Source: Thermoanaerobaculia bacterium
Lineage (GTDB): Bacteria > Acidobacteriota > Thermoanaerobaculia > Gp7-AA8
Direction of reading: 5' to 3'
Assembly: GCA_017883235.1 (NCBI GenBank)
Contig: JADGNY010000073.1
Location: 1-35,077 of the forward strand
Length of the DNA stretch: 35,077 nucleotides
The position numbers were made by a program, and so were the translations under genes. This document shows, piece by piece, positions 21,841 through 35,000 of this stretch. A model generated the notes under the pieces. The model was not told the DNA's origin, searched no databases, and was given only the letters and a program-made list of their open reading frames with translations. Numbering within the stretch: the stretch's first letter is position 1; the number at the start of each line of letters is the position of its first letter.

Positions 21841-22000
21841 CTTGCCACTCTGTTTCGTCGCCACTCTGACTCGTCGCCACTCTGACTCGCCGCCACTCTG
21901 ACTCGCCGCCACTCTGACTCGTCGCCACTCTGACTCGTCGCCACTCTGACTCGTCGCCACTCTGACTCGTCGCCACTCTGACTCGTCGCAACTCTGTCCC
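21841..22000. repeat. 16-bp tandem repeat, ten units
   Basis: Eight clean units of GTCGCCACTCTGACTC (21857-21984, with T/C variation at position 2) are flanked by a degenerate unit on each side. A 16-bp period shifts the frame, so ORFs across it give repetitive low-complexity peptides and are not genes. It lies 50 nt after the solute-binding gene. Confidence 0.95.
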
Positions 22001-22010
22001 GGTCAGAACC

Positions 22011-22066
22011 CCTTCTCCCCCCGCGGGTTTTTGCGGGGGGAGAAGGTGCCGAAGGCGGATGAGGGG
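22011..22066. repeat. REP-like hairpin element, copy 1
   Basis: A 14-bp perfect stem CCTTCTCCCCCCGC / GCGGGGGGAGAAGG with an 8-nt loop is followed by a tail containing GGCGGATGAGGGG. The same stem-plus-tail occurs inverted at 22167-22226 and at 34936-35000. Confidence 0.85.
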
Positions 22067-22166
22067 GGCGTGCTCGCGGAATGTGCGATCTATGGTCCGA
22101 GATCGATTGAAGGCGTCGCATAGAGTTGCCATTCAGCTCGCGCGCGCGAATGACGGACGCGTAAAG

Positions 22167-22226
22167 CGCCCCCTCATCCGCCTGTCGGCACCTTCTCCCC
22201 CAGCCGAAAAGCGCTGGGGGAGAAGG
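22167..22226. repeat. REP-like hairpin element, copy 2 (inverted)
   Basis: Tail CCCCTCATCCGCC is followed by stem CCTTCTCCCCCAGC / GCTGGGGGAGAAGG. It is a mirror of copy 1, so the two flank a 100-bp spacer. It directly abuts the truncated S41-like fragment. Confidence 0.85.
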
Positions 22227-22228
22227 GC

Positions 22229-22531
22229 CACCTCTTCGTTCTGATCGGCCCGCAAACGTTCTCCGCCGCCATGGCCAACGCCGCTCATTTCCGCCAGATG
22301 ACCGAGGCCACGCTGGCCGGAAGAACGATCGGCGAGAACCCGAACAGCTACCAGGAGCCGCGCGAATTCACGCTCCCCCATTCAAAGCTCACCGTCCGCT
22401 ATTCGACGAAGCTCTACGAGTTCAACAGAGGTGGCGAAAACGCGATCCACGCCGACCACGAGATTGTCGTCACGTGGGAGGAGTACAAGGCGGGGAGGGA
22501 TCCGGTGATGGAGTGGGTGGTGGGGCGGTGA
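22229..22531 (+). pseudogene. C-terminal fragment of an S41-like peptidase
   Basis: The frame is open from the REP stem onward: HLFVLIGPQTFSAAMANAAHFRQ, then ATLAGRTIGENPNSYQEP, FTLPHSKLTVRYSTKLYEF, ending DPVMEWVVGR. The (I/L)GPxTFSAAMxN segment carries the Ser in the position of the S41 (tail-specific/C-terminal processing) nucleophile. Downstream text matches the ends of S41-like proteins. The first several hundred residues are missing; the break coincides exactly with the REP hairpin, so it is a remnant. Confidence 0.72.
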
Positions 22532-22572
22532 GGACCTGCGAGAGCCTGCCGTCGCAAGCCGAGGACCGATGT

Positions 22573-22596
22573 GGCACAGACACTCTTGTCTGTGCC
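22573..22596. repeat. Dispersed palindrome, copy 2
   Basis: GGCACAGACA arms around CTCT, as at 777-798, extended by one G/C pair. Confidence 0.8.
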
Positions 22597-22650: not shown

Positions 22651-22674
22651 GGCACAGACAAGAGTGTCTGTGCC
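22651..22674. repeat. Dispersed palindrome, copy 3 (inverted)
   Basis: This is the exact reverse complement of copy 2, 54 nt away. Copies 2 and 3 form a BIME-like inverted pair. Confidence 0.8.
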
Positions 22675-22691
22675 CTCGAGACCGGGAGGCC

Positions 22692-22845
22692 GTTAACCCG
22701 CATTTCTCACAGTCTTTTTGAAGTACTTGCGACTCCCTTCGTCGAGAGTCCTTCTCCCCCAGCTGAAAAGCGCTGGGGGAGAAGGCTCTCGACGAGTAAC
22801 AGGGTGGCGACGATTCCGGTGAGAGTGTGAGAAATGCGGGTTAAC
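22692..22845. mobile_element. 154-bp MITE-like element with 19-bp terminal inverted repeats
   Basis: The left end GTTAACCCGCATTTCTCAC and the right end GTGAGAAATGCGGGTTAAC are perfect inverted repeats of 19 bp. Inside are CGTCGAGAG / CTCTCGACG and a central 14-bp REP-type stem CCTTCTCCCCCAGC / GCTGGGGGAGAAGG. The left inner arm is diverged. There is no coding capacity. A half copy lies at 34777-34868. No target-site duplication was convincingly identified. Confidence 0.75.
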
Positions 22846-22970
22846 AGCCTCCCTGGAGATCGGACGTTACGATGCCGCGATAGCGGCTCAAGAGGGTAGA
22901 CAGGGGTGTGAGCGCTGTTTGCGAGCACCCCTGGTCTGCGTTGTCTTTTGAAAGCGTGCCGCGTTCGCAG

Positions 22971-23165
22971 AAAGCCGGCGAGGTGCAGATGGCCGATCAT
23001 GAGGCATCGCTCAAGAGCGACGGGTGGACGATCATTCGCGATCACGGCGAGCTGGAAGCGAAGAAGCGCGCCGGCGCGACTACCGTGTGGTACCAGTCGT
23101 TCCCGAACTCGCCGAAGGTGACCCTCCTCGAGGAGGCGCCGCCGCCGCGCGTGATCACGCTGACG
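22971..23165 (+). pseudogene. Fragment duplicated from the OmpA-family gene
   Basis: This stretch encodes KAGEVQMADHEASLKSDG, WTIIRDHGELEAKKRAGATT and VWYQSFPNS, nearly identical in DNA and protein to 24806-25000 inside the intact gene downstream. It has neither signal peptide nor C-terminal domain and then runs into the 3' end of the convergent FG-GAP gene. It is a partial duplicate, not a gene. Confidence 0.85.
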
Positions 23166-23197
23166 CCCAACGCCAGCCCGCATCCCATGACGATCGA

Positions 23198-24451
23198 TCA
23201 GTGCCTGACGGCGTGTCGCCGCGGCGGAACAGTTTCCACCGGTGTGACGAAGACGAATGCTGATCCAACGCTCTGGTTGTCAATTGGGGCGCCAGCAATA
23301 ATCGTTTTGCCGTCACCGGCGAGGGCCAGCGAAAAGCCCATCTGTTGCCCGTCCGAAACGGTGTTGCTCTGCAGCTTATGGTTTTGCTGTGTCCAGACTC
23401 CTCCGCTTTTGGTCCAGACCCACAACGATCCGCCGTTTACATTGTCCGTGGGGCCTCCAACAACGGCGATATTGCCGTCGGCAGAAATGCCGACGGACGA
23501 GCCTTGCTCGGCCTTCCCGAAGGCATTCGAGCCGACCAACTTGGCGCCCTGTTGAGTCCAGACTCCTCCGCTTCTGGTCCAGACCCAAGCTGCTCCAACC
23601 CTGTTGTTGTCAGCAAACCCGCCGACGATCGCTGTGTTTCCGTCAGCCGAGAGGGACACCGCACCACCTTGTCCGGCAAATTCGGTGGCATCAGAGCCGA
23701 CTAGTTTGTTTCCCTGCTGTGTCCAGATTCCTCCGCTCCTCGTCCAGACCCATGCAGCGCCGCCACCGCCATCATGATATCCTCCGACGATGGCCGTGTT
23801 GCCATCCGCGGAAAGAGAAACGGAGCTACCTTGACCAGAGCTCCCGATAGACCCTGATCCGACGAGTTTAGCCCCCTGCTGTGTCCAGACTCCTCCGGTC
23901 CTCGACCAGATCCATGCAGCGCCAATGTTCCCGTTGTCATTGACCCCTCCTGCGATCGCCGTGTTGCCGTCTGCTGATAGAGCCACAGACCAACCTTGAA
24001 CGGACGTAATCCCAATAGAGCCGGCGCCGGCTAGCTTAGGTCCCTGCTGCGTCCAGATCACTCCGTTCCTGGTCCAGACCAATACCGCTCCCTTGGCGCC
24101 GTCGTCGTAAGGCACTCCTACCAAGGCGGTGTTGCCATCGGCAGAAATCGCGACTGCGAAGCCCTGCCCTCCTCCTGCAGAGCCGACCAGCTTGGTTCCC
24201 TGCTGGGTCCAGAATCCTCCGTTCCGAGTCCAGATCCATGCGGATCCACTCGTGCCGTCCTGTGGCCCTCCGACGATCGCCGTATTGCCGTCGGAGGAGA
24301 TTGCAACGGAGTCACCTTGTTCCGGTTGACCTATGTAGTCTGCGCCAACAAGTTTCGCCCCCTGCTGCGCGAACTGCGCGAGGGCGGAGTGAAAAGGAAG
24401 CAACGTGGCGTAGACGAGGACGATCAGCGCAAAGCGATAGCGCGTGTTCAT
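23198..24451 (-). CDS. Secreted FG-GAP-type seven-bladed beta-propeller protein
   Basis: The product is 417 aa. The Sec signal (FALIVLVYATLLPFHSALAQ) is followed by seven repeats of about 53 residues, each with W.QQG.KLVGS....G...QG.SV..SADGNTA(I/L)VG and then GAAWVWTR..G. The count of QQG/QQN-KL starts is exactly seven, enough for a closed propeller with velcro closure. Such FG-GAP/integrin-alpha-like proteins are exported and usually bind ligands or surfaces. The C-terminal tail PPRRHAVRH is odd. No sorting domain is seen. High internal DNA identity implies recent repeat amplification. Confidence 0.85.
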   Translation of the reverse strand: MNTRYRFALIVLVYATLLPFHSALAQFAQQGAKLVGADYIGQPEQGDSVAISSDGNTAIVGGPQDGTSGSAWIWTRNGGFWTQQGTKLVGSAGGGQGFAVAISADGNTALVGVPYDDGAKGAVLVWTRNGVIWTQQGPKLAGAGSIGITSVQGWSVALSADGNTAIAGGVNDNGNIGAAWIWSRTGGVWTQQGAKLVGSGSIGSSGQGSSVSLSADGNTAIVGGYHDGGGGAAWVWTRSGGIWTQQGNKLVGSDATEFAGQGGAVSLSADGNTAIVGGFADNNRVGAAWVWTRSGGVWTQQGAKLVGSNAFGKAEQGSSVGISADGNIAVVGGPTDNVNGGSLWVWTKSGGVWTQQNHKLQSNTVSDGQQMGFSLALAGDGKTIIAGAPIDNQSVGSAFVFVTPVETVPPRRHAVRH

Positions 24452-24579: not shown

Positions 24580-25755
24580 ATGCGTACGTGGCTCTTCATC
24601 GCGTTGCTCACCGCTCCCGCCCTTTTCGCGGCCGATCTTCCTCCCGGCTTCAGGATCACTCCCGGTTACGAAGAAGTTCCGTCGTATCACGTGTACGTTC
24701 AATTCGACACTCACACGATCGAAGACCTCGGCACGGGTGGGAGGCTTCAGGGGAAGAAGCTCGAAGGCCGCGTATGGGTCATGAACATCCAACCGGCGGG
24801 CTCGAAGAAAGCCGGCGAGGCGCAGATGGCCGATCACGAGGCATCGCTCAAGAGCGACGGTTGGACGATCATTCGCGATCACGGCGAGCTGGAAGCGAAG
24901 AAGCGCGTCGGCGCGACTACGGTGTGGTACCAGTCGTTCCCGAACTCGTCGATGGTGGCGATCCTGGAGGAGGCGCCGCCGCCGCGCGTGCTCACGCTGG
25001 CGCCGCCGAAGAACGCGCCGGAAACGCTCGCGGACAATGGCGATTACCCGTACGCCACGCCGTTTCCGGGAGGGTCGCTTCAGAGAACGGAACATGCGCC
25101 GCACTCCCTGGAGGTAAAACCGAAGAACGCGAACCAGCCGCTCATCTTTCACGTCGCGGAAACGAAGTGGTACGCCATCCCCAAAGACGTCTCACCGTAC
25201 GAATTCGTGACGGCTTACGACCGCGCGCTGGAAAAGAGTGGATGGAGCGTCGAGCGGGATGGAATCGGAAGCGACGGCATCGTCTGGGCGCACTACGCGA
25301 AGAATGGCCGGGACCTGTGGCTCTTCACGCGGGCTCAGGGCGGACAGCAATCGATCAATGTGGCCGACGTAGGCGCCGATAGCGCGGCGGCCAAACTGAA
25401 GCAGGAACTGGCCGCGTCGGGTCACGTCTCGCTCTACGGAATCTATTTCGACACCGACTCGGCCACGCCGAAGCCCGAGTCGGAGACGACGCTTCAGCAC
25501 GTACTCCAGGTGCTGACAGGCGACGCGTCGTTGCGCCTCGAGGTTCAGGGACACACCGACGACAGCGGTTCGCCGGAGCACAACGCAAAGCTTTCAGGGG
25601 ATCGCGCCGCCAGCGTCAAGGATTGGCTGACCGCACACGGGATCGCATCTTCGCGGCTGACGAGCAAGGGCTACGGCGCGACGAAGCCTGTCGCTGACAA
25701 TCACACTCCGGAAGGGAAAGCGAAGAACCGCCGCGTCGACCTCGCTCGAATCTAG
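24580..25755 (+). CDS. OmpA-family outer-membrane/peptidoglycan-binding protein
   Basis: The product is 391 aa. A signal peptide (MRTWLFIALLTAPALFAA) precedes an uncharacterised domain with two repeats of the type DGWTIIRDHGELEAKK and SGWSVERDGIGSDGIVWAHYAKNGRDLWLF. The C-terminal OmpA domain (about 278-391) shows YGIYFDTDSATPKPES, LRLEVQGHTDDSGSPEHN, LSGDRAASVKDWLTAHGI and RLTSKGYGATKPVADN...KNRRVDL, the peptidoglycan-binding signature. It anchors an envelope protein to the cell wall. Parts of it occur as fragments at 22971-23165 and 26532-26572. A GCCGGC-type repeat overlaps its stop. Confidence 0.92.
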   Translation: MRTWLFIALLTAPALFAADLPPGFRITPGYEEVPSYHVYVQFDTHTIEDLGTGGRLQGKKLEGRVWVMNIQPAGSKKAGEAQMADHEASLKSDGWTIIRDHGELEAKKRVGATTVWYQSFPNSSMVAILEEAPPPRVLTLAPPKNAPETLADNGDYPYATPFPGGSLQRTEHAPHSLEVKPKNANQPLIFHVAETKWYAIPKDVSPYEFVTAYDRALEKSGWSVERDGIGSDGIVWAHYAKNGRDLWLFTRAQGGQQSINVADVGADSAAAKLKQELAASGHVSLYGIYFDTDSATPKPESETTLQHVLQVLTGDASLRLEVQGHTDDSGSPEHNAKLSGDRAASVKDWLTAHGIASSRLTSKGYGATKPVADNHTPEGKAKNRRVDLARI

Positions 25756-25930: not shown

Positions 25931-26188
25931 TTGACCTCAACCGAGCGTTTCGTCAACCTCAACCGAGCGTTCGTTAACCTCAAGCGAGCGGTCCTCGACC
26001 TCAACCGAGCCTTCGTTCGACCTCAACCGAGCGGTCGTTGAACCTCAACTGAGCCTTCGTTGACCTCGACCGAGCGGTCGTTCAACCTCAAGCGAGCCTT
26101 CGTTGACCTCAACCGAGCGGTCGTTCAACCTCAACCGAGCCTTCGTTAACCTCAACCGAGCGGTCGTTCGACCTCAACCGAGCCTTCG
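25931..26188. repeat. 20-22-bp tandem repeat, twelve units in alternating dimers
   Basis: The core is ACCTCAACCGAGC, joined alternately by CTTCGTT and GGTCGTT, giving a higher-order period near 43 bp over six dimers. Unit lengths of 20, 21 and 22 bp shift the frame, so a long coding repeat is unlikely. A short part reads as heptads (LNRAFVN, LKRAVLD) but soon stops. Not CRISPR: there are no unique spacers. Confidence 0.92.
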
Positions 26189-26195
26189 GCGACGT

Positions 26196-34776: not shown

Positions 34777-34868
34777 CTAACCGCATTTCTCACACACTCA
34801 CTGGAATCGTCGGCGCCCTGTTACTCGTCGAGAGCCCTTCTCCCCCGCGGGTTTTTGCGGGGGAGGGT
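34777..34868. repeat. Half copy of the MITE-like element
   Basis: CTAACCGCATTTCTCACAC, then TGTTACTCGTCGAGAGC and a CCTTCTCCCCC / GGGGGAGGG hairpin match the right half (reverse complement) of the 22692-22845 element. The other terminal repeat is missing. Confidence 0.75.
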
Positions 34869-34935: not shown

Positions 34936-35000
34936 CTCTAATCGAGAGCCCTTCTCCCCCCGCGGTTTCTTGCGGGGGGAAGGTGCCGATAGGCGGATGA
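34936..35000. repeat. REP-like hairpin element, copy near right edge
   Basis: CGAGAGCCCTTCTCCCCCC, a short loop, GGGGGGAAGGTGCCG and tail AGGCGGATGAG match the 22011-22066 family. The sequence from here to 35077 holds no recognisable gene. Confidence 0.8.

Follow-up and report, generated by a model that had tools for sequence, protein, structure and literature searches.

IS1380-family elements are described as having inverted repeats of 16 to 21 bp and duplicating 4 or 5 bp of their target (PMC4133298, in the part that treats this family), and their transposases form the outgroup in the piggyBac trees shown in PMC10813416. The same account gives piggyBac ends as starting with CCC and the piggyBac duplication as TTAA, rarely CTAA or TTAG. 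Bacterial MITEs are defined, in the relevant sections of PMC4133298 and PMC3733652, as small, multicopy, noncoding elements with inverted ends, a target duplication, and a strong fold. For the IS4 family, the sections of PMC2266710 on its transposition report a target duplication of about 10 bp, CA at the end of the element, cut-and-paste movement, and an insertion specificity of IS231A. Within the portions of the literature on IS1380 and MITEs that were accessible, we found no description of the element reported here.

The element lies in a window of 35,077 nucleotides, the whole stretch of DNA that was analyzed, which makes up contig C114; the genome, of 6.92 Mb, is assembled in 246 contigs. 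A sequence-only reading had described a 154-bp nested palindrome with perfect 19-bp termini, and direct reading bore this out: 22692-22710 reads GTTAACCCGCATTTCTCAC, and 22827-22845 is the exact reverse complement of it. A repeat search of the window gave inverted arms at 22684-22715 and 22822-22853 that are 94% complementary, and the symmetry of this copy continues past the 19-bp ends into the flank. Folding of positions 22680-22860 with RNA parameters gave -123.5 kcal/mol, compared to a mean of -60.9 (sd 4.5) for 200 shuffles, none of which was as stable (z -13.8). An Rfam search below the gathering threshold matched microRNA models alone, which we read as chance matches to a hairpin.

The palindrome is placed between a plus-strand ORF ending at 22531 and a minus-strand gene at 23198-24451 that has an FG-GAP_2 match. 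This position between converging genes and the very stable fold would both suit a palindrome retained for terminating transcription or stabilizing mRNA, with mobility belonging to its history. However, the upstream ORF had no Pfam match and could be only part of a gene, and a MITE would be expected to show a nested inverted design in any case. We regard such a role as very improbable. Nearby, a 208-bp segment of an OmpA-type gene is duplicated with 92% identity (22960-23167 and 24797-25004), and the copy at 22960-23167 resembles a gene fragment.

We conclude that the palindrome is a genuine multicopy, noncoding MITE of IS1380 type, with a hairpin at its core, and that its proper extent is 144 bp (Table 1). 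The terminal repeat taken earlier to be 19 bp is actually the 14-bp sequence CCCGCATTTCTCAC, and the adjoining TTAA is the target duplication; the 19-bp end was rejected, as it is the sum of the 14-bp end, the 4-bp duplication, and one flanking base. The symmetry is longer in the window copy because of the duplication and of a flank that forms an inverted repeat of its own (GGGAGGC / GCCTCCC), and an empty site would form a short palindrome around TTAA. Such a site was sought in the congeners G001 and G002, where no syntenic intergene was found.

Table 1. Features of the MITE, its surroundings, and its relatives in the window
Feature	Position	Strand	Basis
Flanking inverted repeat, left part, GGGAGGC	22684-22691	.	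direct reading and repeat search
Target-site duplication TTAA, left copy	22693-22696	.	reading and paired copies
MITE proper, with IS1380-type ends and without coding capacity	22697-22840	.	ends, 4-bp flanks, relatives
Left terminal inverted repeat CCCGCATTTCTCAC	22697-22710	+	genome copies; equal ends flank PF13701 transposases
Half arm B (AGTCT...CTTGCGACTCCCTTCGTCGAGAGT), of the type seen on one side of related copies	22711-22749	+	element sequences
Core hairpin CCTTCTCCCCC-loop-GGGGGAGAAGG, a palindrome also repeated on its own	22750-22785	.	repeat families D11, D13
Half arm A (CTCTCGACGAGTAACAGGGTGGCGACGATTCCGGTGAGAGT), of the type on the other side of copies	22786-22826	+	element sequences
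Right terminal inverted repeat GTGAGAAATGCGGG	22827-22840	-	reading, genome copies
Target-site duplication TTAA, right copy	22841-22844	.	reading and paired copies
Flanking inverted repeat, right part, GCCTCCC	22846-22853	.	direct reading and repeat search
Composite repeat lacking MITE ends (hairpin - CGGATGAGGGGG ... CCCCTCATCCGCC - hairpin)	22010-22228	.	pairs I2, I7; G002 copies
One-ended relative, made up of CTAA, CCGCATTTCTCAC, inverted arm A, and hairpin	34777-34868	.	reading and repeat search
Second core hairpin adjoining the one-ended relative, as in the ~300-bp form	34949-34980	.	family D11

These boundaries, with ends CCCGCATTTCTCAC and the duplication TTAA, follow from the YTAR flanks of paired copies and from a survey of ends in the source genome. 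A BLAST search with the 154 bp, in which 40 of 157 candidates were scored, gave near-full-length relatives with identities of 92, 92, 85, and 86%, along with many partial matches. The end GTGAGAAATGCGGGTTA, allowing up to 2 mismatches, was found at 42 + 44 = 86 places in the genome versus 0 + 2 for the reversed pattern. When inward-facing ends were paired, 31 two-ended elements were obtained, 11 of them with identical 4-bp flanks that were YTAR in every case; the 20 others had no identical flanks, one (C198) being at a contig start. YTAR directly follows 67 of the 100 distinct ends in the source genome, and CTAG, TTAG, and CTAA are each commoner than TTAA. Conservation of the ends in other copies, on which the sequence-only reading had staked its claim, is thus seen at 86 end places and in 31 two-ended elements, and its description of a nonautonomous, MITE-like frame holds for many copies with conserved ends, YTAR duplications, and no gene.

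The element sequences have a nested order, from the YTAR duplication through the 14-bp ends and the half arms, of two kinds (A and B), to the hairpin CCTTCTCCCCC..GGGGGAGAAGG, and the 144 bp consist of hairpin arms throughout, without coding capacity and in many copies. A diverged version of half arm A is present in G002, and one copy (C174_13370) has two A arms. There is one hairpin in the window form and two in a form of about 300 bp, where they surround a CGGATGAGGGGG...CCCCTCATCCGCC spacer (CTCATCCGCC); the 144-bp window form appears to be a one-hairpin derivative of the longer one. The one-ended copy reported near the window end was recovered as well, positions 22757-22839 and 34781-34863 being 83% complementary over 83 nt. 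Its end, CCGCATTTCTCAC, is short of one tip C, and the copy resembles a remnant of the ~300-bp form, since it starts with CTAA + CCGCATTTCTCAC and is followed by another core hairpin (34949-34980). One ~300-bp-type MITE (L023 / L008, C44:52045-52625) has an extra insert between direct repeats of GGGTTCTGACCGGG, and this insert holds an ORF fragment resembling a transposase N terminus.

The earlier proposal to look for a transposase paired with the ends of the palindrome led to the IS1380 family, whose transposases (PF13701) were found between matching 14-bp ends. In other genomes, from many phyla, the IS-type end TARCCCGCATTTCTCACCG was matched in at least 120 stretches. Among the 120 loci listed, 5 have an IS1380-type ORF, and at 3, from three bacterial lineages, both ends and identical duplications surround it, in Lichenifustis (L145; duplication CTAG, PF13701 E 2e-150), KSB1 (L149; TTAG, 2e-102), and Phycisphaerales (L182; CTAA, 1e-152). 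Their PF13701 scores were 343 to 508 bits; the right end of L145 has 2 mismatches, and the L149 transposase is split across two overlapping ORFs. The 120 loci also hold 53 short two-ended elements, 28 of them with identical 4-bp flanks, which were YTAR in 27.

One IS end starts four contigs of the source genome (C137, C76, C83, and C68) and the other end is found in three (C60, C177, and C194), and these ends share CCCGCATTTCTCAC. Beside the first, the tail of an ORF (ARITVTARKIW...) aligns with the C terminus of PF13701, at positions 400-432 of the 435 in the model (E 1.4e-4). No intact IS with these ends was found in the source assembly, from which the IS body is absent, the ends lying at contig breaks. 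By eye, the MITE and the source-genome IS had no subterminal resemblance beyond the 14-bp end. The sole assembled full PF13701 gene of the source genome, on C119, was rejected as the partner because its ends, CCGTAGAACCTCAG, differ; this second IS1380-family IS (L088, C119:9724-10995) is located beside ATTCAAC tandem repeats. Matches to the IS end in G015, G025, and G028 (L089-L091) were set aside as chance, the ORFs there being unrelated.

The terminal inverted repeats of the MITE are identical to those of an IS1380-family IS, and a 4-bp YTAR duplication is found in 11 of the 31 MITE copies and in the three two-ended IS1380 elements. An IS1380-family transposase would be expected to cut and paste the MITE in trans via the 14-bp ends CCCGCATTTCTCAC, and insertion at YTAR would duplicate those 4 bp; a hairpin repeat with an independent existence may have come to be nested inside the MITE. 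We consider it highly probable that the MITE is moved in trans by an IS1380 transposase with insertion at YTAR. As a further step, the junctions of its other copies may have been targets of a second element, X, and carry its excision scars.

The sequence-only reading had assigned the center to a REP-family hairpin. That the core is a repeated hairpin was upheld, for copies outside MITEs are found in the window (22011-22046 and 22191-22226) and widely in G002, and the composite repeat at 22010-22228 also fills the ~300-bp MITEs. Strict REP/RAYT membership was not upheld. The source genome has 9 Y1_Tnp (PF01797) matches, and these, together with the wide repetition of the hairpin without MITE ends, could point to a REP/BIME-type element, in which a RAYT (Y1) transposase moves the hairpin itself and the outer inverted ends play no real part. 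However, CCTTCTCCCCC was absent within ~1.5 kb of the Y1 genes at the 6 loci fetched and inspected of the 9, and the outer ends are conserved far above the reversed-pattern control and are flanked by 4-bp duplications, the mark of a DDE-type element. Moreover, three of the 31 copies (C56_76473, C46_16632, and C210_15353) keep the ends but have no core hairpin. By reading alone, the stem foot of the hairpin is CGTCGAGAG / CTCTCGACG, set beside the GTAG/CGTC tag criterion for REPs. A REP/BIME origin thus seems quite improbable, and we retain the IS1380-type MITE as the mobile unit.

Several other repeats were observed in the window. Directly ahead of the composite hairpin repeat, a 16-bp tandem repeat, GCCACTCTGACTCGTC, runs through about 9 copies (21844-21985), and CCCGGTCAGAACCC adjoins the hairpin at 22010. 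The palindrome GGCACAGACACTCTTGTCTGTGCC is repeated and inverted at 772-798, 22569-22596, and 22651-22674, and it also fills the core of the two-ended MITE C2_8015 and that of L377. An array of 21- to 22-bp repeats (CCTCAACCGAGCGKTCGTT) occupies 25933-26190.

Many MITE ends are followed at once by tandem repeats of the tip, the duplication, and a few adjoining bases, as in GGGCTAACGC A GGGCTAACGC T GGGCTAACGC. Under a strict rule, the 10-mer was defined as 3 tip, 4 duplication, and 3 flank bases, and a second copy had to match at 9 or more of 10 positions after a gap of 0 to 2. For the strict count, an end could have no more than 2 mismatches and no N, needed an outer flank of 34 nt or longer, and was counted once if duplicated, which left 100 of the 117 end places found at up to 3 mismatches in the source genome. 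Tandems were present at 14 of these 100 ends, at 6 of 49 in the congener G002, and at 1 of 16 in G009, and were absent from the relative G005 (0/27), G006 (0/5), and the loci of other genomes (0/202). A looser rule gave 18 of 100 in the source genome versus 2.0 in permuted controls, 6 of 49 in G002 versus 0.73, and 1 of 202 in other genomes versus 0.58; for the source-genome set, the permuted controls gave 2.0 per 100 with 7 of 8 positions matching and 0.33 with 8 of 8. In G009, one MITE end (L338) is followed by a tandem array of AGGAGGCC.

The commonest frame, a tip of 3 with a gap of 1, accounts for 11 of the 14 source-genome tandems. A one-base gap was seen in 16 tandems, and the base was A or T in 14 of them (binomial p 4e-5 at 37% A+T), the source-genome loci having 63% G+C. 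Exact maximal 10-mers at a distance of 11 numbered 5 in 798 kb of the source genome; two had the tip-YTAR form, and both of these adjoin MITE ends, one of which is degenerate. Replication slippage at the foot of the big hairpin, which would involve no second transposon, is known to make short tandem copies, and these elements are strong hairpins. However, slippage does not predict the A/T-rich extra base, the peak of the frame at 3+4+3 with gap 1 coincides with the frame of the X insertions described below, and no tandem was found at the 202 MITE/IS ends from GTDB. Other hairpin feet at the same loci gave 6 tandem matches in 95, all at periods 8 or 14, and none of the 95 was at periods 9 to 12. 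Slippage is therefore unlikely to be the source.

The order of events can also be read from these junctions. Given the YTAR preference of the MITE, arrays of 10-mers containing YTAR could have existed first and attracted insertion, but the tip variants of the MITE (AGG, CGG, and GGA) reappear in the repeats adjoining the same element. In addition, four copies (C16, C174, C210_15353, and C44_52045) have identical duplications and one-sided tandems, the opposite flank being without the tip triplet. Both observations indicate that the tandems arose after insertion of the MITE, and we regard preexisting arrays as extremely improbable. A fill-in model, with a 10-nt staggered break centered on the duplication and no second transposon, was dropped because X was found in the same frame.

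Element X is a second MITE, with ends CAATGGCCTGAACTTAAG, a 10-bp duplication, and copies of 153 to 316 bp without a transposase. It was found at L005, where a 316-bp copy (ends CAATGGCCTGAACTTA...) lies between two copies of GGCTTAACCC, the 3+4+3 ten-mer of a MITE end; among inserts between exact 10-mers, this pair at 326 bp proved to be X, and another pair, at 1167 bp, was flagged (L033). Counted outward from the MITE end, an X end begins after 7 nt (8 in one case and 6 in another) at 4 further source-genome ends among the 100 and at 5 of 27 G005 ends, and no X end was in place at the MITE ends of G002, G009, G006, or other genomes. One further X in G005 (L093) is 6 nt from a degenerate MITE end. 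The duplications of X matched at 10 of 10 positions in L005, 9 in L316, 8 in L317 (by eye), 8 in L391, and 6 in L383. The G005 copies, of 153 to 154 bp, have duplications of 8 to 9 of 10 or degraded ones, and in several X copies the duplications are degraded or offset. A target duplication of about 10 bp is thus found in X, as in an IS4-type MITE. A transposase with DDE and YREK motifs, as expected between X ends in an IS4-type element, was not found; a scan of viral contigs gave 2 chance-like matches, neither with a partner end.

In unbiased samples, X is not confined to MITE ends, at which 1 of 2 clear X ends lay in 798 kb of the source genome and 0 of 7 in 395 kb of G005. The flanks of X in these samples are often CTAGCCC, suggesting that the MITE junction imitates the preferred target of X. 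In the IS4 family, IS231A has a preference for GGG(N)5CCC and for Tn4430 ends.

On this sequence evidence, the tandem copies may be read as scars of X excision sealed by end joining. The GGG-YTAR-nnn junction of other MITE copies, though not of the window copy, would be a preferred 10-bp target at which X inserts with a 10-bp duplication and from which it would leave by flush cut-and-paste excision. End joining would then add usually one untemplated A or T and seal the break, giving duplication-N-duplication in two or three tandem copies. Ku (PF02735) matches numbered 2 each in G000, G001, and G002 and 3 in G009, and no Ku was found in G005, which is 97% complete. Sealing by end joining is suggested because Ku is present in the source genome, and G005, without Ku, has X and no scars. 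The contrast in scars between Ku-bearing genomes (21/165) and G005 (0/27) is weak (Fisher p 0.049). The ratio of scars to X in place was 14:4 in the source genome versus 0:5 in G005 (p 0.004), a comparison of two genomes that is confounded by history.

We lean slightly toward the view that IS1380-type junctions are hot spots for an IS4-like MITE whose excision is sealed by nonhomologous end joining in a Ku-bearing lineage. We likewise find it somewhat favored that the record left is a set of tandem 10-bp duplications with one untemplated A or T, sometimes two rounds deep. The usual view is that donor sites of bacterial transposons disappear or are restored through recombination; these junctions, if so formed, would preserve a natural bacterial record of both transposon excision and end joining. 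MITE ends would then allow past X excisions to be counted and break closure to be seen, and the fate of donor sites in Ku-bearing bacteria could be tested from sequence and by a plasmid assay. Novelty lies more in the scar reading than in the identity of the MITE. That identity links a previously anonymous palindrome to one defined family of transposases and makes MITEs with CCCGCATTTCTCAC annotatable, this short end being common to many phyla; on either strand it occurred in none of the papers searched, where the matches were shorter unrelated strings.

Compared with the IS1380 family, the MITE has the 14-bp ends of PF13701-bearing elements and an equal 4-bp duplication, but it has no gene, is filled with hairpin repeats, and has subterminal DNA unlike that of the source-genome IS. 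It fits bacterial MITEs such as Correia/NEMIS, TIMEs, and others in size, copies, ends, duplication, and fold, and differs from them in its IS1380-type ends and in the second, independent hairpin repeat in its middle. REP and BIME palindromes are likewise repeated and intergenic and also occur in inverted pairs, whereas the core hairpin has no assigned GTAG tag and no adjoining RAYT in the loci checked. X resembles the IS4 family (IS231 group) in its duplication of about 10 bp, its CA end, and its proposed cut-and-paste movement, although its copies are only 153 to 316 bp without a transposase and it is assigned by ends and duplication alone. Finally, piggyBac is eukaryotic, whereas the window MITE family uses YTAR in general.
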